From: Aplectana chamaeleonis
Taxonomy: Eukaryota; Nematoda; Chromadorea; Rhabditida; Cosmocercidae
Assembly: GCA_029168955.1 (NCBI GenBank)
Contig: JAPDOI010000133.1
Span: forward strand, 559,001 to 623,000
Reading direction: 5' to 3'
Length of the DNA stretch: 64,000 nucleotides
Below the pieces are notes generated by a model, which was not told where the DNA came from, did not search any database, and saw nothing but the letters and a program-made list of their open reading frames with translations. Both the position numbers and the translations under genes were made by a program. Positions 6,001 through 60,110 of this stretch are shown in pieces (position 1 is the stretch's first letter; each line of letters begins with the position of its first letter).

Positions 6001-6140
6001 TATTACTTTGCGAGTGCCTGCGGTTATCGACATAATAAATATACATCGTCGATTATGCCGTTTCGCATATTTTTGGTTCCGACATGCGTTTTTAACTTTA
6101 TTTTCAGGTAATTCGTGAGGTCCCCTGCTTCACAGCGATC
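3030..6140. other. Non-coding interior of the 7 kb unit
   Basis: This is 3.1 kb of pyrimidine-rich DNA between the repeat arms. It has no ORF above about 130 codons and no recognisable pol motif. It begins GCGTGGTTTCAAACCCACAC, a possible tRNA primer-binding site if the arms are LTRs. The word GCGT is conspicuously frequent throughout (for example CTGCGTT, CCGCGT, CAGCGT). The stretch ends at a strong splice acceptor just before the Gag-like ORF, so part of it is probably promoter and 5' leader or intron. Confidence 0.5.
6098..6107 (+). promoter_or_regulatory. Splice or trans-splice acceptor upstream of the Gag-like ORF
   Basis: The sequence TTTATTTTCAG ends at 6107, only 33 bases before the ATG at 6141. 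It matches the nematode 3' splice consensus. It supports 6141 as the start codon and implies either an upstream non-coding exon or addition of a spliced leader. Confidence 0.6.
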
Positions 6141-8189
6141 ATGTCGGAAAATGCGAACAACGGTTCCAAGGAACCACAATGCGACGCTCAGCCACCCCCT
6201 CTTGGGGCAGCAACGCCGCAGCCGCCTGCGCCTGCTCCACCTGCGCAGCCCGCTGCTATTCCACCGGCGTTATCGCCGCACAACCGCGTCGTACATGTTC
6301 AACCTCGTGAGCCATCACGTCAGTATGAGGAAGCTATTGCCAACAGGCGTCTCCTTCGTGAGGTCGCCGAGGTGATCGCCCCGTACGACCCCGTGGCGGC
6401 TCGGGAGTTGTTGAACACAGACGACATCAACATGGCTTATAGGCCTAGGGTGATCGAGCTAGTGTTCGGACCAACTCCGAGCACTGGAGCTACGGCTCAG
6501 CTCTCACCAGCGCATTCAGCGCCATCAACCGCGTCTGCACTAGCAGCGCCCGCGCAAACAACATCTGCGCATCCCGCGCCTGCTCAACCTACTGGTGGTC
6601 AGACTGCTATGGACCAGACAACGGAACATCCGCCTAAGTCGGACATCCCGCGTTTGGTCGAGAGCGACGTGGAGCCTCCCAAGGCCCCATCCTCCGCGTT
6701 GCCTCCGCAGCAGCCAATGGTTCAGCAGTCTACTTCGGCACAGCAGCAGCAGCCTACTGGCGCACAACAACCGCGTCAGGGTCGCGTGCGCTCGCCTTTG
6801 CGTTATGGAGGCTTTCATCGCATGTACCGCAGCGACACGTCGCCGCCGTGCAGCGAAAAGTCTTTCAGCGTACAGCCGCCGGCTCATGTGGAGCGCCGTG
6901 GAGGCGTAGCTTATCCGCGCTACGATCCACCTTCACCAAGGCAGCCCCATGCACCTTCGGCTCATCGCTTCAATCCATCGCGTCGTGCTTCGCCACATCC
7001 GGCTCGTCGCGCCTTGCCTCATCAGGCTCGCCGCGTCTCTCCATCGCCGGTGCGTCGCGCATCGCCACAGCAGCGCTCGCCAAGGCCGCGCTCACCACAT
7101 CGCAGCCCACCGCGTGAGCATAGCCGTCGTCATCATGACGAGGAGCTCTACGCACCGCTGCATTACGCGCAGCCGCAGCGTTACTATCCGCCAGCGCCGC
7201 AACATTGCTATCCGCTGCCGCCACTTCAACCGTCGTGCGACAACCATTGGAGAGGTTTTCAGCCGCATTGCCCCAACTGTCAAAGTCGGTACCGCTATCT
7301 AGTGGATTTGGCTATGCGCGAACCCCCAATGGGTCCCACATACGGTTCCGGCTATTACCATCAGCCGCGTTATAGCCCACGCAGGGACTATCACAGTCCA
7401 CCGCGTGCAAGCTATAGCCCACAGCGCCGCGCAAATACATCACAGCGCAGCTATCATAGCCCGCCACGTGAGGCGGAACATCATTCGCGAATGGCTCGTT
7501 CTCCCACACCGCGTCCACGCGACCACTCCCCTCATGGAGATGATCGCCATGTGGAACGCACTCGCGCACAATCATCGCGCAGGGAGCCAACACCGCCTAC
7601 GCGTCAATCTACCCCCAATCCTCCCCAATCAAGCACTCAGCTTGACGCCTCACGTCTGCCGCCCCCATCTTCATCTCGCGCATCTTCCGCTCGCAACCCC
7701 CCTCGTGGTCCCACTCCGTCCTCGCGCCTGCAGGCTGGACCGCTAAGACGGCCCATTTTTACAGCAGCGTTCGACGAGGAAGGTAGACTCAAACCAGTCT
7801 ACGTAACCCAACCCGGAGACCACGAGTATTCCCCATCCCGCTGCTTCTTCTGTGGTCAACACCACTTCAGCAGGGGTTGTCGTGTCGTGCCGTGTCTGTC
7901 GAACCGCGTGAGAATTCATGCGGATGACGGCAGATGCTTCATGTGTGGAGGCATCCATGCTGAGCACGAATGCGAGCTTCAGGAACATCCGTGCCGAGCG
8001 TGTGGTGGTCATGGTAATCACCCCGCGTTCTGCCCGAATAGCTCTCGGCTTACCTGCGATGTACCGCACAGCGATTACGATCGCGTCATGCGTCGCGCTA
8101 GACGCCAGGCTCAAGCCGTACGTGATCATCATCGTGAAGCCGAGTTCAAAGCATACGAGATGGAAATGAAGAAGAGAGCAAGAGGATGA
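6141..8189 (+). CDS. Gag-like zinc-knuckle protein, full-length copy
   Basis: This single 682-codon exon has these parts. Residues 1-50 are Pro/Ala/Gln-rich. A compact segment around residues 55-105 (EEAIANRRLLREVAEVI and following) may be folded. A long low-complexity Pro/Gln/Ser/Arg-rich stretch with RRASP-type repeats resembles RS-type RNA-binding regions. Three zinc knuckles start near residues 568, 599 and 618. The third reads CRACGGHGNHPAFC: asparagine replaces the canonical histidine kept in the upstream copy. A 2-base deletion in a GA run near 8170 shifts the frame, so this copy stops at 8189 with RARG instead of the acidic tail that would end near 8203. It is interpreted as Gag of a non-autonomous or decayed retroelement. 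No Pol ORF lies within the unit. A cellular RNA-binding origin is possible but less likely. Confidence 0.75.
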   Translation: MSENANNGSKEPQCDAQPPPLGAATPQPPAPAPPAQPAAIPPALSPHNRVVHVQPREPSRQYEEAIANRRLLREVAEVIAPYDPVAARELLNTDDINMAYRPRVIELVFGPTPSTGATAQLSPAHSAPSTASALAAPAQTTSAHPAPAQPTGGQTAMDQTTEHPPKSDIPRLVESDVEPPKAPSSALPPQQPMVQQSTSAQQQQPTGAQQPRQGRVRSPLRYGGFHRMYRSDTSPPCSEKSFSVQPPAHVERRGGVAYPRYDPPSPRQPHAPSAHRFNPSRRASPHPARRALPHQARRVSPSPVRRASPQQRSPRPRSPHRSPPREHSRRHHDEELYAPLHYAQPQRYYPPAPQHCYPLPPLQPSCDNHWRGFQPHCPNCQSRYRYLVDLAMREPPMGPTYGSGYYHQPRYSPRRDYHSPPRASYSPQRRANTSQRSYHSPPREAEHHSRMARSPTPRPRDHSPHGDDRHVERTRAQSSRREPTPPTRQSTPNPPQSSTQLDASRLPPPSSSRASSARNPPRGPTPSSRLQAGPLRRPIFTAAFDEEGRLKPVYVTQPGDHEYSPSRCFFCGQHHFSRGCRVVPCLSNRVRIHADDGRCFMCGGIHAEHECELQEHPCRACGGHGNHPAFCPNSSRLTCDVPHSDYDRVMRRARRQAQAVRDHHREAEFKAYEMEMKKRARG

Positions 8190-19703: not shown

Positions 19704-21483
19704 ATGTCATTTGGCATACATGGGCTTTTCCAGTTTGTTGTTTTTCTCATGAAGATATTCACAAAATTTTAAATTTGTTGTAAAACGCTTATACACACAT
19801 TTAAAGAACTCAAAATCGCTCCGCTATGATACGATTATGACACAAGTTCTGCTACCAGATTTTGAGGATTTGATAGGCCACTTTTTGTTTCCTTTAGGGT
19901 TCAATGCGGGTTAATGGATAGATATGAGACTGCAGCTTGTCCGATAAGCCTCCAGGCAAATCGAAGAAATGAGGAGCCTAAACAGGAGAGGAAAACTAAC
20001 AAAATAGATCGACAAAGAGCGGACCACCCCCAGCAGACCTAGCGAAGAGATTCCTGAAGTGGCATGCATGAATGCGGAGGCTGGTGTGGGGGCGCGCCGT
20101 TCGCGTTACAATTTGAACTCAAAATCGTGCGCGTGCGTGCAGCGTTTCGCTCCCTGTCTCTCGCCTCCGGTTCATGCATGCTACCCCTAAATTACTTCTC
20201 TTCCATATCAGTTTGAAACTCTCTTAAAGATTAAAGTTTAGTGTCAGTTTAAAACTCTCTTAAAGTTTAAGGTAGAGTTTGAAACTCTTTAAGTCTTTCT
20301 CAACAACTTGATCTCTCCGCCGTTTGTTTTCTCACGTTTACGTTTCCCTTGTGGCCTGGTAATGATGCTTTCCTGATTGGGTCGTCAATAACTGTAGTTT
20401 ATTATTCTGAGGTGTTAGATCTGAAAGTGTTTTGCTTGCGTACCGGTACAAAAAGATTGTGTGGTTATTGTGAGCTGTGCACATTTGCCGAGCATCGTAC
20501 ATTCATGATTGCGCATTGCGTTATCACTCAGCTGAAATGAGAACTAGCATGATGCACTTGTAGTTCAAACCTATTTCACACGTTCTCTGCAGTTTCGTTA
20601 TTTGAATTCATGGACGTATCCCTCCATTGTGAATTCCTCAATCGGCACTTGACTAGCATACACTGAAATCGCTCCAAATATCGTGTTGTTAGAGAATACC
20701 ACCCCACGTAAAGTCCAGGACATGATTGAGTGAAATCCCATAGAGAATGCTATATCAATTACAATTAAGTAGCAAGTGGAATTGAATCGCCTGGAAACGA
20801 ATTCTCTTGGTTTAGGAGCTCGGATTCTACAGATTGACATTAATCAGGAGTGGAGAATTGAATAAGAGCTAATTGTAGCTGTTTCGCAGCATTTTTCAGG
20901 ATTCCTTCTTCACTGTTGAAACAGCCAAGCCCTAAACCTTCGTTTTCTGGTAAGAACTCGAAAACGATTTTTATCATGTACACTGCCTTCAAAGGAAGAA
21001 AACTCCCACCTGTAGTAGGCCATGACATTGATGCAGAATCGCGGCAAGAATGAGATGCCCGTGAACGAGCATCCACAAGATTTTATCACTGATAAGGCAG
21101 CATGTTTGGAAGGGAAAACGGGAGAAGCAGCTTATAGTCACTCTACCTTTCATGATATGGAAAAAAGGAACGCAGACCTTCAAGAAACCGGACCAGAAGT
21201 TGTGAATGACTGTCTCCATTGTAATCTTGGGAGCGGTGATCCTTCCATCTGGGCATCAAAGTTTGGTAATCGTAGTCTTGCGGGTAGCGAAAACGCGTCG
21301 TGCGCGGTGAACTCGCCTTATCCTACTAACTATATTTGGTTTGGTGTGTGTATGTGTGTGACTTTGAACGGAAATTAGTCATTACCACCCGTCATTAACA
21401 ATTTACACCCGGTTGTCTCACACACTGTCCACGCCTGCAGCCTTGGTGATTGACCTCCTGTGTCAATGGGCAAACATTCTACT
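19704..21483. other. Intergenic downstream of CAP gene B
   Basis: No gene is supported. Three copies of a short GTTTRAAACTCTCTTAAAG motif occur between 20210 and 20300. The stretch at 19835-19915 shares ATGA.ACAAGTTCTGCTAC.AGATTTTGAGGATTTGA with 23390-23460, marking a dispersed repeat. A + strand ORF at 21022-21378 has unbiased composition and no recognisable domain. Confidence 0.4.
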
Positions 21484-21517
21484 TATAGCTGGATTCCTGA
21501 GCTTCATATCAATGTTA

Positions 21518-21878
21518 TAAATAGAAATAAATTGAAGCTCTATTCGTTATGTGGAGACAGTTAATTATCCACCACTTTATCCGCAACGTTTCGGGTCATA
21601 GACCCATCATCTGGCGGCTAAAATTCAATCATATGGCAGCGAAACAAACATATATAATTAGGGATCTGACCTACGGCTGCGCGGTAGGGGTGGATGAGAG
21701 GGTGGTGGCGGGTAGGGTCTTCTTGGAACGGCCGGCTCAACCACAGCACAGACGACAAATGGTGGGAGGACCGTCAAATGTCGTTAATCAGTGAGGTCAG
21801 ATCGGAGTGTAAGCATCTTCAGCGCGTCCTTCATTTCTTCCCGGTTGTTCATCGGTGGTGAATGCAACCGTATCTCCG
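21518..21878 (+). repeat. Left inverted terminal repeat of the Penelope-like element
   Basis: It is almost the exact reverse complement of 22223-22581; a few substitutions are visible (for example CGGCCGGCTC versus CGGCTGGCTC). It contains a hammerhead-like motif on the - strand. The outer boundary begins TAAATAGAAATAAATTGAAG. Confidence 0.9.
21581..21617 (-). ncRNA. Hammerhead-ribozyme-like motif (left arm)
   Basis: Read on the - strand, it has a CCGC/GCGG stem I, a core CAGATGA, stem II GGGTC-TAT-GACCC, then GAAAC and a GTT cleavage-site equivalent. This is the layout of the minimal hammerheads reported in Penelope-like elements. The core deviates from CTGATGA at one base and has one extra T before stem II. 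Catalytic activity is not demonstrated. Confidence 0.5.
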
Positions 21879-22303
21879 TACCGTACCTCTTAACTTCATC
21901 TAGACCTTACGAAAGCCGTTGTGGGCGTACCGGTTGCAGATATTGCACTGCAGATCTACAAATATGCCAAGCACGGAATGTGGTCTACAAGGTCACCTGC
22001 CTGGGCTGTGGAGAATTTTATATTGGCGAGACTGGTAGGCCTCTTCACAAGAGGCTGGATGAACATATGCGGGCCCTGAGATCACCGTCCTCGTATCTCA
22101 ACAGTGCGTTCTCCAAGCATCGGACATCACGGCATGCGTATGAAGCCGCGCCAGAAATGAGAGCAAGCATACTGTATAAAAACATTTCTGATACGGCCGA
22201 AAAGAAAGATAAAGGAAGCTCTGGAGATACGGTTGCATTCACCACCGATGAACAACCGGGAAGAAATGAAGGACGCGCTGAAGATGCTTACACTCCGATC
22301 TGA
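21791..22303 (+). CDS. GIY-YIG endonuclease domain ORF of the Penelope-like element
   Basis: This 170-codon ORF starts inside the left arm and ends inside the right arm. Its centre has a CRYC...C zinc-binding lead, NVVYKVTCLGCGEFYIGETGR (the GIY and YIG strands), then PLHKRLDEHMRAL with the conserved Arg and the following acidic His motif. This is the C-terminal endonuclease seen in Penelope-like retroelements. There is no upstream reverse transcriptase. The ends of the ORF merely read the repeat arms, so only about residues 45-105 are likely to be a genuine domain. It may be a fossil fragment or a retained recognition sequence. Confidence 0.75.
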   Translation: MRSDRSVSIFSASFISSRLFIGGECNRISVPYLLTSSRPYESRCGRTGCRYCTADLQICQARNVVYKVTCLGCGEFYIGETGRPLHKRLDEHMRALRSPSSYLNSAFSKHRTSRHAYEAAPEMRASILYKNISDTAEKKDKGSSGDTVAFTTDEQPGRNEGRAEDAYTPI

Positions 22304-22581
22304 CCTCACTGATTAACGACATTTGACGGTCCTCCACCATTTGTCGTCTGTGCTGTGGTTGAGCCAGCCGTTCCAAGAAGACCCTACCCGCCACCACCCT
22401 CTCATCCACCCCTACCCCGCAGCCGTAGGTCAGATCCCTAATTATATATGTTTGTTTCGCTGCCATATGATTGAATTTTAGCCGCCAGATGATGGGTCTA
22501 TGACCCGAAACGTTGCGGATAAAGTGGTGGATAATTAACTGTCTCCACATAACGAATAGAGCTTCAATTTATTTCTATTTA
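22223..22581 (-). repeat. Right inverted terminal repeat of the Penelope-like element
   Basis: It is the reverse complement of 21518-21878. It ends TTATTTCTATTT at 22580 and is followed directly by the right copy of the 12-base duplication. It carries the second hammerhead-like motif on the + strand. Confidence 0.9.
22482..22518 (+). ncRNA. Hammerhead-ribozyme-like motif (right arm)
   Basis: Stem I is CCGC at 22482-22485 with GCGG at 22515-22518. The core CAGATGA is at 22486-22492, stem II at 22494-22498 with 22502-22506, GAAA at 22507-22510, and the predicted cleavage is after T22514. It is identical to the left-arm motif on the opposite strand, which suggests it has been conserved. Stem III is minimal, as in hammerheads thought to act as dimers. 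Confidence 0.5.
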
Positions 22582-22593
22582 AAACATTCTACT

Positions 22594-26785: not shown

Positions 26786-29700
26786 CTTGTTGCCAGTCCA
26801 TGGAGCAGGATCACTTCGTGCGACAAACACAAATGGTATGTTTGCCACCACGATAATCGCACTTATTCCGAGGAATAAGTGAGACCACTGAAATTGAGAA
26901 TTGTAACCACTGTCAGAGACGATAACCAATTGGGTATAGATTCGGAAGAGAACTTGTGTACCTGTTCCGCAGTGTTGTCCGGGCACACGGTGTTGACGGC
27001 GACCGGAATGAGAAGAACAATGATGCAGAGGAGGAACGAGATTACGGCCATCACAATGTGGACGTATTGTCGTGCCACCTGAAAGGATGCTTTTAGGCGT
27101 GAGTCAATTCGACCAGATGGATCCTTATTTTAGGGCCTACCATCTGCGCACATTTCACAACGCCAACGACATTTATGCCGCTGGTCACTATGGAAACTGT
27201 GTAGGCGATCTGACCCAGACCAGGAGATGTGATCTGTAGAGAATATTTGTGAGTGAACATTTTTCCTACAAATCTGCAACTGAAAAACATGAAAACTCAC
27301 AAATGCAAGGGAGAAGATTGACAGCGCCATTACTCCTTGTGAGAATGATGCGAATAAAATTACCCGCCATCGTTCCGAAATGCAGGTGGTTCGATCTGAG
27401 ACAGGTCCCACCACGAACTTCACAACTGCAGAAAGAATATAGGGAAGTGCAGTGATGAAACCGGTCGACTTCACGTCGTAATGTAGCACCTGACATTGAA
27501 TCAGAATGTTCTTCTCTAGGTGAATTCCCTCCAATTCAATTATACAGCTAACCTTGTTGATGTAGGTAGGACCGTAGAGGAGGAAAATTTGAAATCCTAG
27601 ATTGCCGCCGATGGCTGCCAGCCAGATTCCGAGAATGCACGGGTCGGTAGCAATGGCCCTGACACGGAATTTTATCATTCATGAAGCTGTTTAATGGCCT
27701 CCTCTACTATGTCCTTATTAGCCTCTATAATTTAGTGTTCTACGCCCTCTGGTGTGCTGCTGTGCCCTATACGTGAATAGTTGATCATATGTGGCCCCAC
27801 TTTCCCTCATGAATAAAACAACTTTTAGCAAGATAAGATTCGGAAACAACGCCACGATACTCATCATCATGTGTCATTATGAGATAGTCATGTATTGCAT
27901 GGACTATCTATGTGTGTTGCACGCGACAAGGCCGACACATTAGTCACCAGTAGGCGGTTTTACCCAAACTGCATGATCGGGTTCATACTTCAAGCGACAC
28001 CTAACCACAACATGATGGCGGCTTAACTATTGTCCTCCATCGACCTTGCCGATGAGTTTACATCAACTCGCCATCAACCCGGTGAGCTCTCCGTTCACCG
28101 TGGTTGGAATTTTCATGAGAGCGTGATTAGCTCGAAGGAGCGTTTACGGCTCGTGCTCAACCATTCGCTTACCAGGCAACATCACACGCACATGAGATAA
28201 GTTCAAAAAAGTCAACCTGTAAGGAGGAGACTGCTTCTTTTGTCCTTGCTTGCCTTTTGTGATTTTCGTCAGTTCAGCTGAGCTTACATTTCTGAAAAAA
28301 AAATCAAATCTTATGGACTGAATTGCGTAGAAGTTATACATGTAGTTATAGAATGATCTTCTAGCTTAAAATGTTCGTCCACTGTGGTACTTCCTAACAA
28401 GAAGGTCATCGCACCTGTGCAGTCCCGGGTCGTCTCTGTAGAAGAGGTAGAACGCAAGAAAAGCACATGCTGTCAAGCCTCCCTAAAATCGGAATATTTT
28501 CAGGTTCGTCTTTTTTGCTTAGTTCAACTTTATTCTTTGACGTAATAGAATATTCATTTGAGGTGAACTGATGTTCAAAATATTCAGTGTGGCATCCCCT
28601 TTACACTGCATGGAATCGAATGACTAGCTGGTGCAAAAAGGCTCTAAGGCGTCGTCTATACTTCCGCCGCGGCGCGGCGAGATGCAATACAGCCATATCG
28701 AACAAGCGGCGCCGCGCTGCGTTCAGAGTTTTTCTGCTCGAAATCATCCAACGGCGCCGCACGCGGCCGCCGCCTGGGTGCTGCCGCGCCGCCCGGGGAG
28801 AGCAGGCGGAGCGGCGGCCGCGTGCGATTCGTATTAGCATTATTTGCTTTTTTTGTTGTTATTTCACATACATTCTCATTTATTGTTTCTCTTATTCATC
28901 ACTCAAAGTCCCTCCAAGGTCTTGGGCGTCGTTAAAAGCAGGATGGGTTGTGAATGTTTCGGGTGCGCCCGAAGAGGCACTCTGAGATGGGAGGGGCCTG
29001 AAAGCGCATGGCGCGCGCACCTTCTCGTGGACGAGTCCCTTTTAGATCGTGATGCGTTTTTCTTGGATATTCCTGGAATGACTAACTACCCTAGTTTGAT
29101 TTCTTTTCTACCAGATGATTAATGTTTCTCCTAATCGCTTCTCTTATCCACGATGAGGTGTCCGCGGGAAGGTGCGCGCGCCATGCGCTCTTAGGCCTCG
29201 CCCATATCGGAATGCCTCTTTTCCCTCCCCCGAATGTTTCGATTTTTTTGCTTTTGAAACCATTTTTCTCAACAGAAAATACAAAACTACTCTTAAAATA
29301 CTTTCTACAAAGCGCGTGGATCTTTTTGTCATGTGAATAATGTTGCCCGTCATTAGCGGAAAACACAAAAAAAATGTTTTGAAGACAAGAAATTTCCCAC
29401 GTCCCTCATCCACTCCACGCTGTAGTTAACCTTGCCATAAAATGTACAGTCGTGAACAATTCTGACATCGAACGTAAGTTAGTAGGGATTGGCGAGAAGA
29501 TTGAAAGTGAGAAATTCATGTTTCCTAACAAGATTAATGTAAAGATCCGCAATCCTCCGTCGAATACATGATCAGGTACGCAAATGTGCGTCGCCGCGTC
29601 AAATCGACGCAGCCCGGTTATACATCCTAGTGGCGCGATTTTTCGAGCGGCGCGCCGCGCCGCCCCACTTTTCGCCGCGCCGCTCGGCGGCGGAAGTATA

Positions 29701-39313: not shown

Positions 39314-42300
39314 CTAGATATGGGCACACTGCTTCTTCAGCCACTCCAGCTCAGCCGTTTTACCGGCCTTCTCCAGATACTCTCCGACAGTCGACAGTAC
39401 TCGGTCATGGTACAAATTCAGCCATTCAACCTGAAATTTATGAAGTTTGGAAACGTTTTCAGAAAGCACCCTTCTTCAGGATGAAGTGATCTACCCTTAC
39501 TTTCCACCTTTTTATCAATTTTCTCACGGGTTAGATGAGGGAATTTTGTGGTTGGTCAATATAGACTTAGGCCAGCCCCTAGCACCATGCCAAAACAAAT
39601 GAACAAAGGCACGCAAGTAACTGCGATGTACAAACCTCGGAATGTGTCAGCATGGATCTATCAATAATGCTGGTCTGGATTGGAGCCAACGTTAACGCAC
39701 GGAATCCCAGGAAATCCGCTCCTGAAGGCACCTTCGCCTTCACAATCTGGAAGATTGCATTTTAACAGTACCTTAACAAAGTCGATAAATATTCCAAATA
39801 TAGAATCAATATCCATGAACTACAGCCTGTCACCCAGAAAGGATTACAGGCGGAGCTATGTATGTGGTGGTGGGAACGAGCGGCTGAGTTACACATTTGC
39901 GGTGCTTAAACACTCGTAGTTCTGTTCCGCCAGACCGCTGCCGCACAAAGGCCAAATTCGTTGACCCGAAACGCCGGCTGTTTATCCCGAGACGTCGCTC
40001 TTCGGTGCTTACTTTAATGCATGGTTTTCTCAAAAACACCTCCTGCTTCACCCGAAAGACCTGGCGTTTGCCCCAAGACAAGAAGAAACAGCAGCGATCT
40101 GGCGGAACACAATCACGAGCGTCTGAGTAGGTAAGAAGCCGATTTTCCTAATCTCGCAGGTAACAGTCCTTTTCCTGTTTGAAGTTCTTCTTATAGGTGA
40201 TAAAAATTCAGAAAAAGACCCAGTCGTCAAAATCGTATTTGCATTGAACGTGCAGCGCGGCCGCCCGCGCTCCCCTCCATTTGGCTCCGCCTAGACTCAT
40301 TTATGAGAACAGAGTGCACGGACCCGAAAACAGCTGATTCCGCCAATTAAGGCAACTCGAAAGCGAACCAAAGCTTCCTATAGCGTGACGCGTAGCGGAC
40401 GCGCTGCGGCTATCAGTAACCTGTCATGACCCTAAAGATTTCTTCTCTTCTATCGGACCCAATAATACTGATTTCGAGAGCATGGTAGGTTCTATAAAGC
40501 AGTACCAATCAGTTATCTATTTTAGAAGCATGTCTGTCACCCCGCCGCTTTGCAAACACGCTCGCCTGCGACGAAAACAATTAACGAAATTTAGCCAGAT
40601 TTCAACAATTTCAATCACCCTCTCCATTATGAGACCTGAGACTCACCTCATAGCAGTTTTCTATCCGAATTCCCCATTTTCCTACCAAGTAGTAGCCCGG
40701 TTCTATGGTCAGAACCATGCCTTCCCGAATCCAACAATCTGATCCATACGCAGCGATACGATGGCCGAGACTCGCTAAAAAATATGAGGATTTGGCAAAT
40801 CCACGCAATACCTTGGGTTTTTGATCTCCAGTAAAACCACCCACCTGGACCCTCATGCACATTGAGGAAATGCCCCACACCATGCCCAGTACCATGTCCG
40901 AAATCCAGACCAACCTGCCATAAAGCATGACGAGACAGCGTGTCCATTCGAATACCTGGGGAGAACCATAATATAAAACTATAAACGCTAAAGTATCGAT
41001 TTTTTTCAATTTTTCTGGTTTACAGAAAACCTCCACATACTCTGAAAATATTCTATTGTAATGTGCTTATCTGGGCCGAATTCCGGTCCGCAATTGCGTC
41101 TCGACACGCTTTGCAGCCGCACGCGCTCGAGTCAATCGGGTTTCCAGCGCCAAAGTCGACTCGATGTGGCCTTTTTATATAATTTTCTCCAATTTTTCTT
41201 AGTTTCCGGTTTCCAAAACCCACCTAGAGTCAGCAGATCGGCGGCTGCAGCGGTGGAAGCTCTTCTGACTCGGAAGCGTGCGGCCGCAAAGCGTGTCGAG
41301 ACGCAATTGCGGACCGGAATTTGGCCCAGATAAGCACAGTAAGTCTGCAGAGAATTAAAAAAGAAGTTTTTTTTGCAAGACCCTATCGGGAAACGGCTGC
41401 ACGTTTGGGTCAGCCCTGTGCAATGCTCCTGTCGATCAATATCGCCACCCGGCTGACCCCCAAGCGCCACCACTTCCCTAGAAACCTCATGACAATACCT
41501 GTAAGCGCCTGCGGGAAAACGGTATTGGCCAAATTGATATGTCCTTTCAAAACCAAAGTATTATGCTCTATGAACTCTTTAGGTACAGGAGATTTCAATG
41601 AGATCCATACAGTACGAGTGACATCCGTGGTACCATCCCTGAAAAATTCAGATTTTATGAAGTCTACACGAGAAAAAAAACTGAATTAAAAAAAAATAAC
41701 CTATAATGCGCTCCAGAGTCTATAAGATAGACCTGATCCGCTGTCACCAGTCGTTTTCCTTCTTTCTCATCAGGGTGATAGTGCGGCTTCGCGGCATGAT
41801 CTCCAGCCGCCGAGATCGACGAAAAACTGCAGAACAACCATAAATATCCACTAAAATTTGAAAAAAAGTCTAAGCTCACCTCAGATCAACATATTTGTCC
41901 ATGGCGGCCCTCATCGAGTCCACCTTCGCGGCCATCTCAATTTCGCTATGGGATCTACCCTCCAACAGCTCATTTTCCACCCACATAAGGAACCCAATAA
42001 GAGCTGCGCTATCCCTAATCTGAAAACAAAGATCAAGAATTTCGCAATGGGGTCATATTTTAGTACCTAGGGATTTAGGAGATTGAGCATTCACTCTGAG
42101 AGTTTTGACCAAGAATAGCTGCGAAATGTCTGCTTGCCGCGTAGTAGCCGCAAAATAGCCGTGAAACGATGCTCACCGCAAAATTACCGAGAAATAATGC
42201 TCTCCAGGTAGGCATGCGGCGCATCTCAGAGGCATGATTCAGATGTCAACGCCTCCGTGGGTTCAATTACCAAAGTTTGAGGTCTTTGGACCTCTTTCAG

Positions 42301-45300
42301 CCTCTGGAGGCCCAGACCAAACGCTGGCCCCGTATTGGTTACTTTTGCCTCTTCTCATTATTTCTCGGCTTCTTCCTGTCCGTTTCGTGGAAAGCCGTGG
42401 AATAGCCGGGAAGTAGCCCTTCAGGAGCCGTCGCGGAGCCTGGTGGGCTATTTCTCGGCTAAAACTCTCAGAGTAGGTCCAAATTGGACAACTCACATGG
42501 CTCTTCCGCATGCCTTCCAGCTCCACAGCATTTTTCACTCCTTTCATCACCTGTACCGGGCTGCCCTCTACGATGGCACATGATCCGAACAGCTTACCAA
42601 ATAGGTAGTTAGTGGTTGTCGGAACAAAAACCTAGAAAAAAAAATCAGAAATTTTGTTCATTTCTATTGGAGTCTATCAAAACCCGCTCACCCTATGCTT
42701 CTCCTTCACGTCAGCGGTCTGCTTATTATGCCATTTGGACACAAAATCGTAAGCTTCCGCATATGGATGAAGAATTACAGATTCACTTTCCAGGTATTCC
42801 TTCATCTAAAGCATTGGACAATATTACTTTGCTGATAATCTGCAGTCTTAACCGCAGTTCTGACTTGAGGTCACCCGATTTCCGATGATTCATGACCGTT
42901 CAATTTTTGAATTTTGGTTTTTTTTTTGAAAAAACACTTCAAAAGCGGAAGACGCTTGAAAACACAAATTTTCCAATTTTAGGAATTTCGGTAATCGTTC
43001 CGCTTTGCGATTCTTATAACTTCCGAAAATTTTCCACTCATGAGAAAGTGATGGGGGGACGCAGCATACGCGCGCACACGCACGCGGCCGACAGAAGTAA
43101 ATTTCACTCCGGAATATAGGATATAGTTAGGGCTGTGGCTCGCTCTCTTAAGAAAAAAACATTTAAATCTCTCCCGCGGCTGGAGCGGCTGTCGCGTAGG
43201 CCGGCCCGCTAAACAATTCAGGCCTAGAGGAGAGCGCAGCCGATCAGCTTACGATATCGCCAGCTGCCGGTGAGATTTGAACCTCCCGCGCCAGCCGCGG
43301 ATGAGATTTAGATGTTTTTTCTTGAGGAAGCGACCCAAGGACCTAACTGTACGTAGTTTTACCATTACGCCTAAGGCTCCGTCCATTGCAGACGACCAGC
43401 GTCAAAGCGTCAAGGCGTCGGACGACTGGTCGGCTGCAGTGGTCGCTGGGGAGTCAAATCAATAACAAGTGCTGAAGATGCAAACCCCCAGCGTCACATT
43501 ACGCTCACTTGACGCTAGGACGTCAGCTATAGACGGAGCCTAAGAGATGCTAACAATGTAGTTCGTTTTTGCATATGCCTTTAACTTTCTAAACACCGCG
43601 CTAGTCAGAAACTTAATGGCCAAAGTTGAAAAGAAATCTGGCTTACTATACTTACAGTATCATCGGCTTTGTCCATAAATAAATGTACATCAGAGGGAGT
43701 GACCAGAAGGTAGGAATAGGCCAAGGGGTTATGCGTAATATCAAATCCTCTTATATTCAGCAACCCTGAAAGCTGATATTGTAAGCCAGGTTTACACTTT
43801 GACACAGCTATACTCGCGCGCTGCATTTGTCGCTGCGGCAAACTATATACATAACGTACACATAATGTCATCGAGAGCCGCAAGAATGATGGAATTGCAT
43901 TTCTTTTTCGCGATTCTCTCACGCAGCTCTTTCAGCTTATCATTCACTGGCCGTCCATGTTCTTCTGGAGATAAGATTATAGGCTGAAATATAAAATCTA
44001 AAAAAAATTAGGTAGCTCAAGAAAGATTTAGTAAGAGCAAGACTCACCCCTTTAGGTTGGAGAGGAGGCCGAGTTTTCCAGAACTCGTCCACGAGATTCT
44101 CCTTTATTGATGCCACGTGAAAACCCATTCCTTCCAAGGTTCTAGTCAGACGCAGCCCACTTTCTGGAAAAAAAAACGTTTTGAAATCAATTTTCCGTGG
44201 GCAATTACAGACAAAAATTATTAGTTTACCATAGGAATGAAGTGAAGGATCAATTCCCAGCCAATCACCCACGTCCAGATTCTCTGCCATAAAGTCCTCT
44301 AACGAGATGGAATCTGCTTGGCTCTCCTTCAGGAGCGTGAATGGCGGAACAAGTTGTTCGGTAGCCTGATAACATTTTATACTATATGACAGCCATCCTT
44401 AGATGACTGGTAAAAAAAACGAATTAAAAAGATTAGTTTTTGATGATTTAGGTCAATTTGAGTATATCTTTAAATTTTATAATCATAAGAATGAAACTTT
44501 TATTTATCCACCTAGATTGAATTCTATTATATCCACTTATTATTTTTTTATTTTAATTTTTTCTTTATTTCTTCATTTTCCTAAGGATAAGAGACGAGGA
44601 AGAAGGAAAAGAAGAAGAAGGAGAGGAGGAGGAAGAAAATGAAGAAGGACAAAGAGACGAGGCAGAAGAAGATGAGGAAGGGGCAGACGAAAAGGAAGGG
44701 GAGGAAGAAAAGGTATACGAAGACGAAGAGGAAGGAGAAAAGTAAGAAGATGAGGAAGAAGAATAGGAAGAAGAAGAGGACGAAGAGGTAGAAGTAGAAG
44801 GAGTAGTAGAAGAAGAACAGTAGGAGGAAGAAAATGAAGGACAGAAAGAAGGGGAAGACGAAAAGGAAGGAGAAGAAGAAGAAGTATATGAATGCGAAGA
44901 GGAAGGAGAAAAGTAAAGGATGAGGAAGAAGAGGAAGGAGAAAAGGAAGAAGATGGGGTAGAAGAAGAGGGAAAATAAAAGAAGGAAGAAGAACAGGATG
45001 ACGATGAAGAAGGGTAGATATAAGAAGACGGAAAATGAGAGGAATATGAAAAAGAACAGGAAGGAGAAAGGGAAGAAAAAGATGAACAAGAAGAGGAATA
45101 GAAAGAAGAGGAAGAAGAAGTGGAAGAAGAGGTAGAAGAAAAGGAAGAAAAAACACGAGAAGAAGAGGAATGAGAAAAAGAAGAAAAGAGGGAGAAGAAG
45201 AGGAAGAAAGAGAGGACAAGGAAGAAGAGAAAGAAAGAAGAAGGGGAAGAAGAAAAGGAAGAAGAGAAACAAGAGGAAGGAAGAAGGAAGAAGGGAAAGA

Positions 45301-45931
45301 AGAATAGGAAGAAGGAGAGAAGGAGGAACAGGAAGAAGAAGAGGATCAGGAAGAGGATCAGAAGGAAGAAGAGCAAGAAAAGGAAAATGAAAGTTAAACG
45401 TTAAAAATACATACCTAATAAATAAATAACTAATTACTTAATAAATAAATAAAACTACATACCTGCGTAAAGTACCGTCCATCCGTCCAGAGCACGGCTT
45501 TCGTGTTGGTGACAGCCACAGTTGCATTTGACCCAGTAAATCCAGTAAGAAATTTCACTCTGAAGTCGTGCTCAGCTAGATATTCACTCTGAAATTGATC
45601 TCTATCAGCGATTGATGACCAAAAAATACTAGTTTAATGCACAAAGCGTCGGCTCGGCCTCAGTAAGCAATACATTACATACATATCGACCGGGACGGAC
45701 ACAGCTGGGTCAGGACGGGCCAGCCCCGGCTCGAAACAGTCACACCGTGACGCTACCGCAACGCATCACGCACCCACACTGCCTAATCGGATGAAAAATT
45801 ACACGAATCTTTATTACCTGATGAGCATCTGTGCTGGGCAGTAAATAAGCTTTAATGGCAGAGCCCTTCGTCACAGCCAATACTTTCTCCGATGAAAACT
45901 GGGCTCGAAGCAAATCAGCCGTGGAGGACAT
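39314..45931 (-). CDS. app-1: Xaa-Pro aminopeptidase (aminopeptidase P, peptidase M24B)
   Basis: Fifteen exons on the - strand: 45818-45931, 45463-45588, 44230-44365, 44048-44163, 43860-43983, 43656-43765, 42692-42805, 42497-42631, 41880-42019, 41701-41826, 41499-41638, 40845-40955, 40647-40774, 39636-39746 and 39314-39430. They total 1848 bases and give 615 aa, matching the known nematode enzyme length. The enzyme removes an N-terminal residue that precedes proline and is a two-metal cytosolic hydrolase. Creatinase-like N-terminal domains occupy about residues 1-320, then the M24 pita-bread domain, then the M24 C-terminal region from about 550. Metal ligands are visible: D408 (LIDSGAHY), D419 (TTDVTRT), the HGTGHGVGH histidine (481-489), E522 (TIEPGYY) and E536 (GIRIEN). 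The start at 45931 lies just after a splice-leader-like acceptor; an in-frame upstream ATG at 46000 would add 23 residues. Introns carry several MITEs and a polypurine tract. Confidence 0.95.
39840..40130. repeat. Hairpin-forming repeat in app-1 intron 13
   Basis: AGTTCTGTTCCGCCAGACCGCTGC near 39918 pairs with GCAGCGATCTGGCGGAACAC near 40090. Inner words (GACCTGGCGTTTGCCC, CGAAACGCCGGCTG) recur in the sequence at 51000-51195, so both belong to one family. Confidence 0.65.
41063..41338. repeat. TIR MITE in app-1 intron 11
   Basis: Terminal inverted repeats begin TGTGCTTATCTGGGCCGAAT and continue TTCCGGTCCGCAATTGCGTC; the complement ends the element. Arms are about 70 bases and the element is 276 bases. 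It is the best-preserved member of the family also seen at 33706-33985. Confidence 0.85.
42095..42480. repeat. TIR element in app-1 intron 8
   Basis: ACTCTGAGAGTTTTGACC at the left pairs with GGCTAAAACTCTCAGAGT at the right. The interior repeats words such as ATAGCCGCGAAA and GAAATAATGCTC. The ACTCTGAGAG terminus resembles that of the element at 22925-23205. Confidence 0.65.
43133..43351. repeat. TTAGG..CGTGGCTTG MITE, copy 1 (app-1 intron 6)
   Basis: Terminal repeats TTAGGGCTGTGGCTCG...AAGAAAAAAACATTTAAATCTC and complement, with a centre built from GCCAGC/GCTGGC words. Five copies occur in the window (also 47356, 53423, 54831, 58972). Each is bounded by TA. Confidence 0.85.
44581..45392. 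repeat. Polypurine GAA/GGA tract in app-1 intron 2
   Basis: About 810 bases are almost entirely A and G on the + strand, in irregular GAAGAAGA, GGAAGGAG and GAAAAGGAA words with only scattered pyrimidines. On the app-1 sense strand this is a polypyrimidine run. Long apparent Ser/Phe/Leu ORFs on the - strand are composition artefacts. Mirror-symmetric purine runs of this kind can form triplex DNA. Confidence 0.95.
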
Positions 45932-59700: not shown

Positions 59701-60110
59701 GATTTTTTTGGGGGGGGGCGATGGGCAGATAGGCAAGTATTTCGCTGCAAAAAGTGCCTGTTTTGTTGTTTGAAGGCTGAACCGTCGGGACCATAAGCGG
59801 GTCTTTCGGGGCGATAGGCAGATGCTTCGCTGCAAAAAAAAACGTTTGGTTTGTTGTAAGACAGGAGCATAAGCCTTCGGGACGGTAAGCAGGTCTTCCT
59901 TGGTGGTAGGCAGATATTTTGCTGCAAAAAACATCTGGTTGGTTGTTAGACAGGAGGCTGAACTTTCGGGGCCATAGATAGGTCTTTCGGGCGATAGGCT
60001 GATATTCCGTTGCAAAAAAAAACACCTGGTTTGTTGTTAGACAGAAGGCTGAACTTTCGGGACGATAAGCAGGTCTTTCGGGGTGACCGGCAGGCGTGCC
60101 TTTCGAAATG
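59701..60110. repeat. Minisatellite, ~85-92 base units
   Basis: Units share GCTGCAAAAAA..., TTGGTTTGTTGTTAGACAG, GAGGCTGAACTTTCGGG and GCAGGTCTTTCGGGGCGAT. The anchors TGCAAAAA fall at 59746, 59831, 59923 and 60011. On the - strand this yields an open, repetitive frame of about 220 codons, most likely a by-product of near-30-codon periodicity. Confidence 0.85.

Follow-up and report, generated by a model that had tools for sequence, protein, structure and literature searches.

The window, meaning the whole 64-kb stretch of DNA analysed here, contains an insert at 21484-22581 that is flanked on both sides by the 12-mer AAACATTCTACT (21472-21483 and 22582-22593). Within the insert, two inverted arms (21518-21877 and 22223-22581) differ by 2 mismatches and 1 gap across 360 columns, an identity of 99%. 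Arms of about 360 nt make an origin by chance impossible. The left end carries an extension of 35 nt, whose last base overlaps the left arm and which is unmatched at the right end. The spacer that separates the arms measures 345 nt and is composed of a 7-nt filler that resembles neither of the two copies on either side of it, and then of sense element sequence. The 12-base target duplication, the 35-base extension and the inverted arms of about 360 bases had all been claimed from the sequence alone, and we found all three in place, the extension at the left end alone. The features, in order and with positions referred to the parent-like unit on contig C1474, are the following:

21472-21483, no strand: target site duplication, left copy
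21484-21518, minus strand: 35-nt tail, corresponding in antisense to the unit's final 35 nt and occurring solely at this end
21518-21877, minus strand: left arm, an antisense 5'-truncated copy starting at unit position 2489
21878-21884, no strand: 7-nt filler of the head-to-head junction, a junction found once
21885-22222, plus strand: sense copy with its 5' truncation at unit position 2162, comprising a GIY-YIG coding piece with a frame shift near 22200
22223-22581, plus strand: right arm, comprising the end of the coding stretch, the 3' untranslated part and the pseudo-LTR, without a tail
22480-22519, plus strand: hammerhead-like string CCGC CAGATGA TGGGTC..GACCC GAAACGTT GCGG, mirrored in the left arm
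22582-22593, no strand: target site duplication, right copy

We searched the assembly (1.04 Gb in 2087 contigs) with the whole element and obtained 91 matches, the best 40 of 630 first-look candidates having been scored. The sequence-only reading had suggested looking for a parent with the same arms, and parent-like units were indeed present. Contig C1474 has a full unit of about 2.88 kb, which forms a tandem with a truncated unit of 1.5 kb and faces an inverted one head to head; across 394 nt, the left arm and tail of the window insert are 100% identical to two units of this contig at their 3' ends. The full unit has an 808-codon frame with a reverse transcriptase domain (RVT_1, E 3.2e-9) and, by alignment, a GIY-YIG motif downstream. 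This frame stops short of the last conserved stretch, and Pfam reported no GIY-YIG domain in it at E 0.01; among relatives, P0107 scored above the Pfam cut-off for this domain, and P0001 and P0004 scored below it. The best-scoring proteins against the frame come from strongylid nematodes (Haemonchus contortus, at 55% identity, and Ancylostoma), which makes a strongylid the likely host. A search of solved structures returned no match.

The parent unit therefore has the order of a Penelope/Poseidon-type element, a reverse transcriptase and then a C-terminal GIY-YIG motif in one frame. Head-to-tail units, which form pseudo-LTRs, occur in C1474, C1353, C49, L017 and L034. The 35-nt tail and the 12-nt duplication agree with the tail of 30-40 bp at one end and the short target duplication of such elements, as does the frequent 5' truncation. 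Placed on the C1474 unit, the window element runs antisense from 2489 through the end of the tail, crosses the 7-nt filler and continues in sense from 2162. The sense copy stops where the tail would begin, and the 3' ends of both copies face outward. Each of the two copies corresponds to the 3' part of the unit. The Penelope derivation and the completeness at both ends that had been proposed are borne out. In a 27-row alignment, no other row has any of the three differences that mark the right arm. Because these differences are private, and because the left arm and tail are identical to the C1474 units, the insert is probably young. We see it as an ordinary truncated, dead copy of the published Penelope class. 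A terminal-inverted-repeat DNA transposon or foldback element was also considered and rejected: the outer ends are unlike, one of them bearing the tail, and the parent-like units encode a reverse transcriptase.

It had further been claimed that a GIY-YIG core is kept open between the arms and that the reverse transcriptase has been removed. A GIY-YIG piece does lie between the arms, but it is not intact: the open frame at 21788-22303 departs from the frame of the Penelope family near 22200, and the last conserved stretch (KIKEALEIRL...) falls in another frame. The Pfam GIY-YIG match of the spacer piece reaches 15 bits, below the curated cut-off of 22.6 (E 0.031), and the motif is apparent when the insert is aligned with its relatives. 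As to the reverse transcriptase, what we find instead of a removal is that both copies are 5'-truncated, at different points. The nuclease piece was retained because it lies near the 3' end of the unit, where copying starts, and it is best read as whatever happened to be copied. Since the nuclease frame is shifted and a reverse transcriptase is missing, the insert is not expected to encode a working enzyme. The string at 22480-22519 was likened to the hammerhead motif, whose core we take to be CUGAUGA. Of the 27 rows aligned, 25 extend over its own core, which begins with CA and not CU in all 25, and an Rfam search of the element gave no hammerhead match at E up to 1. As Rfam gave no match, the string is recorded here and is not used as proof of membership.

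The layout of the window insert is not an isolated case. We read 32 places in the assembly, the window and 31 others, which form a best-scoring and hence biased sample. Both outer 3' ends are visible at 16 of them: the window, C1474, L012, L014, L015, L017, L021, L025, C1353, C1793, C49, L033, L034, L038, L040 and L042. All 16 are head to head, and each carries a tail at exactly one outer end. If the start sites were chosen independently, opposite types would be seen at most half the time, giving P <= 1.5e-5 for 16 of 16 (0.5^16). L040 and L042 were obtained after the rule had been noticed; both conform. Target duplications of 10-14 nt, end homology included, are readable in 14 of these insertions, and the two in which they are unreadable (L015 and L025) lie within microsatellites. 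In C49, a 13-nt duplication is common to the outer ends, the middle 3 kb being outside the data. The 16 uncounted places have fewer than two outer 3' ends present or visible:

Tail at a single 3' end (10 of 16): L011, L016, L019, L020, L023, L024, L031, L032, L035, L036
Single 3' end without a tail (5 of 16): L013, L018, L022, L037, L039
3' end lost (1 of 16): L041

Two of these, L020 and L037, are inverted pairs in which one of the outer ends is absent or outside the data. The tail-bearing L023 (4973-5010) and L035 (1291-1337) have on their other side a short inverted piece from about unit positions 2155-2200, and L013, which lacks a tail, has a short inner inverted piece from unit positions 739-788. 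C1493 and C38, matched by a junction query described below, lie outside the 32 places, and L001-L008 from the whole-element search were not analysed apart. The region C49:96000-110783 (L028 and L029), about 14.8 kb long, is a compound insertion in which one 13-nt target duplication encloses several units, some direct and some inverted; an inner stretch of it appears duplicated. Stretches of about 455-533 nt interrupt three of the Penelope inserts (L017 at 6301-6786, L021 at 6979-7433 and L042 at 1261-1793).

The two kinds of outer end point to two places in the unit. Ends with a tail start a few bases or less from ...GTATAGC. Ends without a tail cluster at an 8-bp stem, GAGCUUCA...UGAAGCUC, located at 2834-2859 in the C1474 unit and at 2837-2862 in the C1353 unit. 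Fourteen of the 16 no-tail ends fall within the loop between GAGCUUCA and UGAAGCUC, at positions 2843 to 2861, these being alignment ends that may extend a few bases into the target; the other two lie outside the loop, C1353 at 2830 and L042 at 2822. The stem is predicted in both subfamilies, and its stability is modestly better or no better than that of shuffled sequences (z of -0.56, -1.45 and -2.44). In the C1474 tandem, the next unit adjoins the tail without a gap, and its 808-codon frame is in phase with an ATG that lies within the tail.

We are fairly confident that the window insert consists of two 5'-truncated copies of one endonuclease-bearing Penelope-like retroelement, placed head to head in a single 12-nt duplication, and that they likely arose when both 3' ends of one staggered cut primed reverse transcription. 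Since the 12-nt duplication encloses two outward 3' ends, a staggered cut with 3' overhangs, each of which primes, is the simplest reading. The GIY-YIG enzyme of the element would cut both strands of the target and leave 3' overhangs of about 12 nt. One overhang would prime at the outer start site, so that the tail is included, and the other would prime some 35 nt inward of it, within the loop of the stem described above, giving no tail. The copies would proceed toward the 5' end of the RNA and halt early, after about 394 and 697 nt, and the two cDNA ends would be joined with 7 nt of filler between them. In support of this explanation, the antisense-then-sense layout of the window insert is shared by 15 further insertions, 13 of which have a readable target duplication.

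In the twin priming of human L1, each end of the target cut serves as a primer on the element RNA, and an inverted part results. To our knowledge, L1 inversions do not copy the same stretch of RNA twice, whereas the arms in the window have about 360 nt in common and begin close to one and the same zone of the RNA. L023 and L035, with their short inner inverted piece, look more L1-like.

An inverted pair could also be made by self-priming, in which one cDNA snaps back and copies itself, a route proposed for rotifer Penelopes on an antisense template (PMC3846280). The head-to-head orientation agrees with it, as do nearly symmetric centres in two of the 14 two-ended inserts in which inner breakpoints were compared (L014, 47 nt, and L033, 19 nt; L017 and C1793 were left out of the comparison). 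A self-copy should, however, repeat the same outer end, and the tail is at exactly one end in 16 of 16. The inner breakpoints of the window insert are 327 nt apart, and those of 12 of the 14, the window included, differ by 147-1879 nt. We consider self-priming unlikely. An inverted pair could likewise come from two nested insertions that took place independently, or from recombination of two copies lying close together, and tandem and inverted clusters of this Penelope family do exist (C1474, C49 and C1353). Such a history sits badly with the single target duplication that encloses both copies in the window and in 13 other two-ended inserts, and with arms that share a subfamily wherever they are comparable (L025 has an arm of 53 nt that is not comparable with its mate); we regard it as very improbable.

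The sequence-only reading had raised the idea of a mobile non-autonomous family, whose copy number can be counted at the central junction. A 90-base query over this junction gave 41 matches (best 40 of 88 candidates scored), and the window's own place alone spans it. The other 40 are one-sided, including C1013, which runs 11 bases beyond the arm at lower identity. In the whole-element search (best 40 of 630 candidates scored), positions 1-1098 are matched by the window alone; no match in the 90 other rows takes in both copies, and the one that crosses furthest is C1013, with 3-405. Breakpoints unlike those of the window insert are seen in two still shorter inserts, L025 (622 nt) and L040 (616 nt), and both copies of L040 begin 3' of the GIY-YIG motif. 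The same deleted structure was thus not found at several target duplications. A single copy in the genome, which the sequence-only reading had itself named as grounds against such a family, is what turned up among the candidates scored. A miniature, nuclease-keeping Penelope family that is moved in trans as one piece, inverted arms included, has in its favour the complete ends, the target duplication and the existence of parent-like relatives with the same arms, but a junction found once among the candidates scored, a shifted nuclease frame and inserts of equal shortness with other contents make it very improbable.

We return to the two primed copies in a single duplication and to the RNA that they were copied from. 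With regard to a single template RNA, the mate arm ranks first by identity in five of 13 rankable insertions (14 were examined, of which L025 was unrankable; L040 and L042 were outside the set). How alike the arms are thus speaks neither for nor against one template RNA per insert. The left arm of the window insert and L040 have the inner breakpoint 2489 in common, which we considered as a sign of a short RNA and rejected as chance: among 42 breakpoints, two pairs lie within 1 nt, where 0.98 are expected (P 0.24). It is possible, though we put it forward tentatively, that every two-ended insertion combines one tail-end start with one stem-loop start, and never two alike, because a complex has two reverse transcriptases that work on a single shared RNA and are unable to sit at one start site together. 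The head-to-head structure would then be the fossil trace of two primers having been extended on one template.

Much of this anatomy is in print. Head-to-head arms and an optional tail of 30-40 bp are known traits of Penelopes (PMC3846280, PMC11167929), and inverted pseudo-LTRs in head-to-head order with a tail on one of them have been published (PMC3846280, 2013; PMC8969392). The endonuclease-bearing Penelopes of the rotifer Adineta vaga (Pen2a_Av and others) share with the window insert the inverted pseudo-LTRs, the head-to-head layout and the 5'-truncated copies; their tail, on one inverted pseudo-LTR, is 31 bp and their target duplication 8-10 bp, as against 35 nt and 12 nt here (PMC3846280). 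In contrast to the Adineta elements, both window copies are truncated to the 3' end, with no reverse transcriptase left, and the host is likely a nematode. The rotifer study left open the origin of head-to-head copies (PMC3846280, 2013).

The Poseidon protein PAc of Anolis carolinensis cleaves and extends both target strands in vitro (PMC11167929, 2024). It uses two adjacent internal start sites on the RNA, whose spacing equals the genomic tail, and the main site is a stem-loop that lies a little way into the reading frame. The element described here, as read from genomic sequence, has in common with it two start sites at a distance of one tail, tandem units and, it seems, the use of both target strands as primers, and the start-site region is a close anatomical match to that of Anolis Poseidon. 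PAc behaves alike on both strands in the choice of start site, whereas the genomic two-ended inserts have one of each kind. The in vitro work therefore does not predict the one-of-each rule, since it saw no start-site difference between strands (PMC11167929). No statement of a strict one-tail rule was met in the accessible parts of the open-licence papers PMC11167929, PMC3846280 and PMC8969392, and the strict pattern may be new.

The 16 two-ended insertions thus provide genomic evidence on Penelope integration: both cut strands seem to act as primers, with one start site each. The one-tail rule links the rotifer question about head-to-head copies (PMC3846280) with the two start sites seen in vitro (PMC11167929). 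If true, the proposal that the two reverse transcriptases share a single RNA would answer how the head-to-head copies of rotifer Penelopes arise.

Elsewhere in the window we observed several other features. A 697-codon open frame occupies a G+C-rich stretch at 6096-8189 and has no Pfam match at E 0.01. On the minus strand, 27130-27675 has a weak major facilitator superfamily match, below the cut-off, and 40611-41063 has a Peptidase_M24 match above the cut-off; each is perhaps an exon. The stretch 44591-45385 is a strongly purine-rich degenerate GA repeat, the minus strand of which is open in three frames of 254-290 codons. At 59774-60083, a 91-base unit is tandemly repeated in 3.4 copies.
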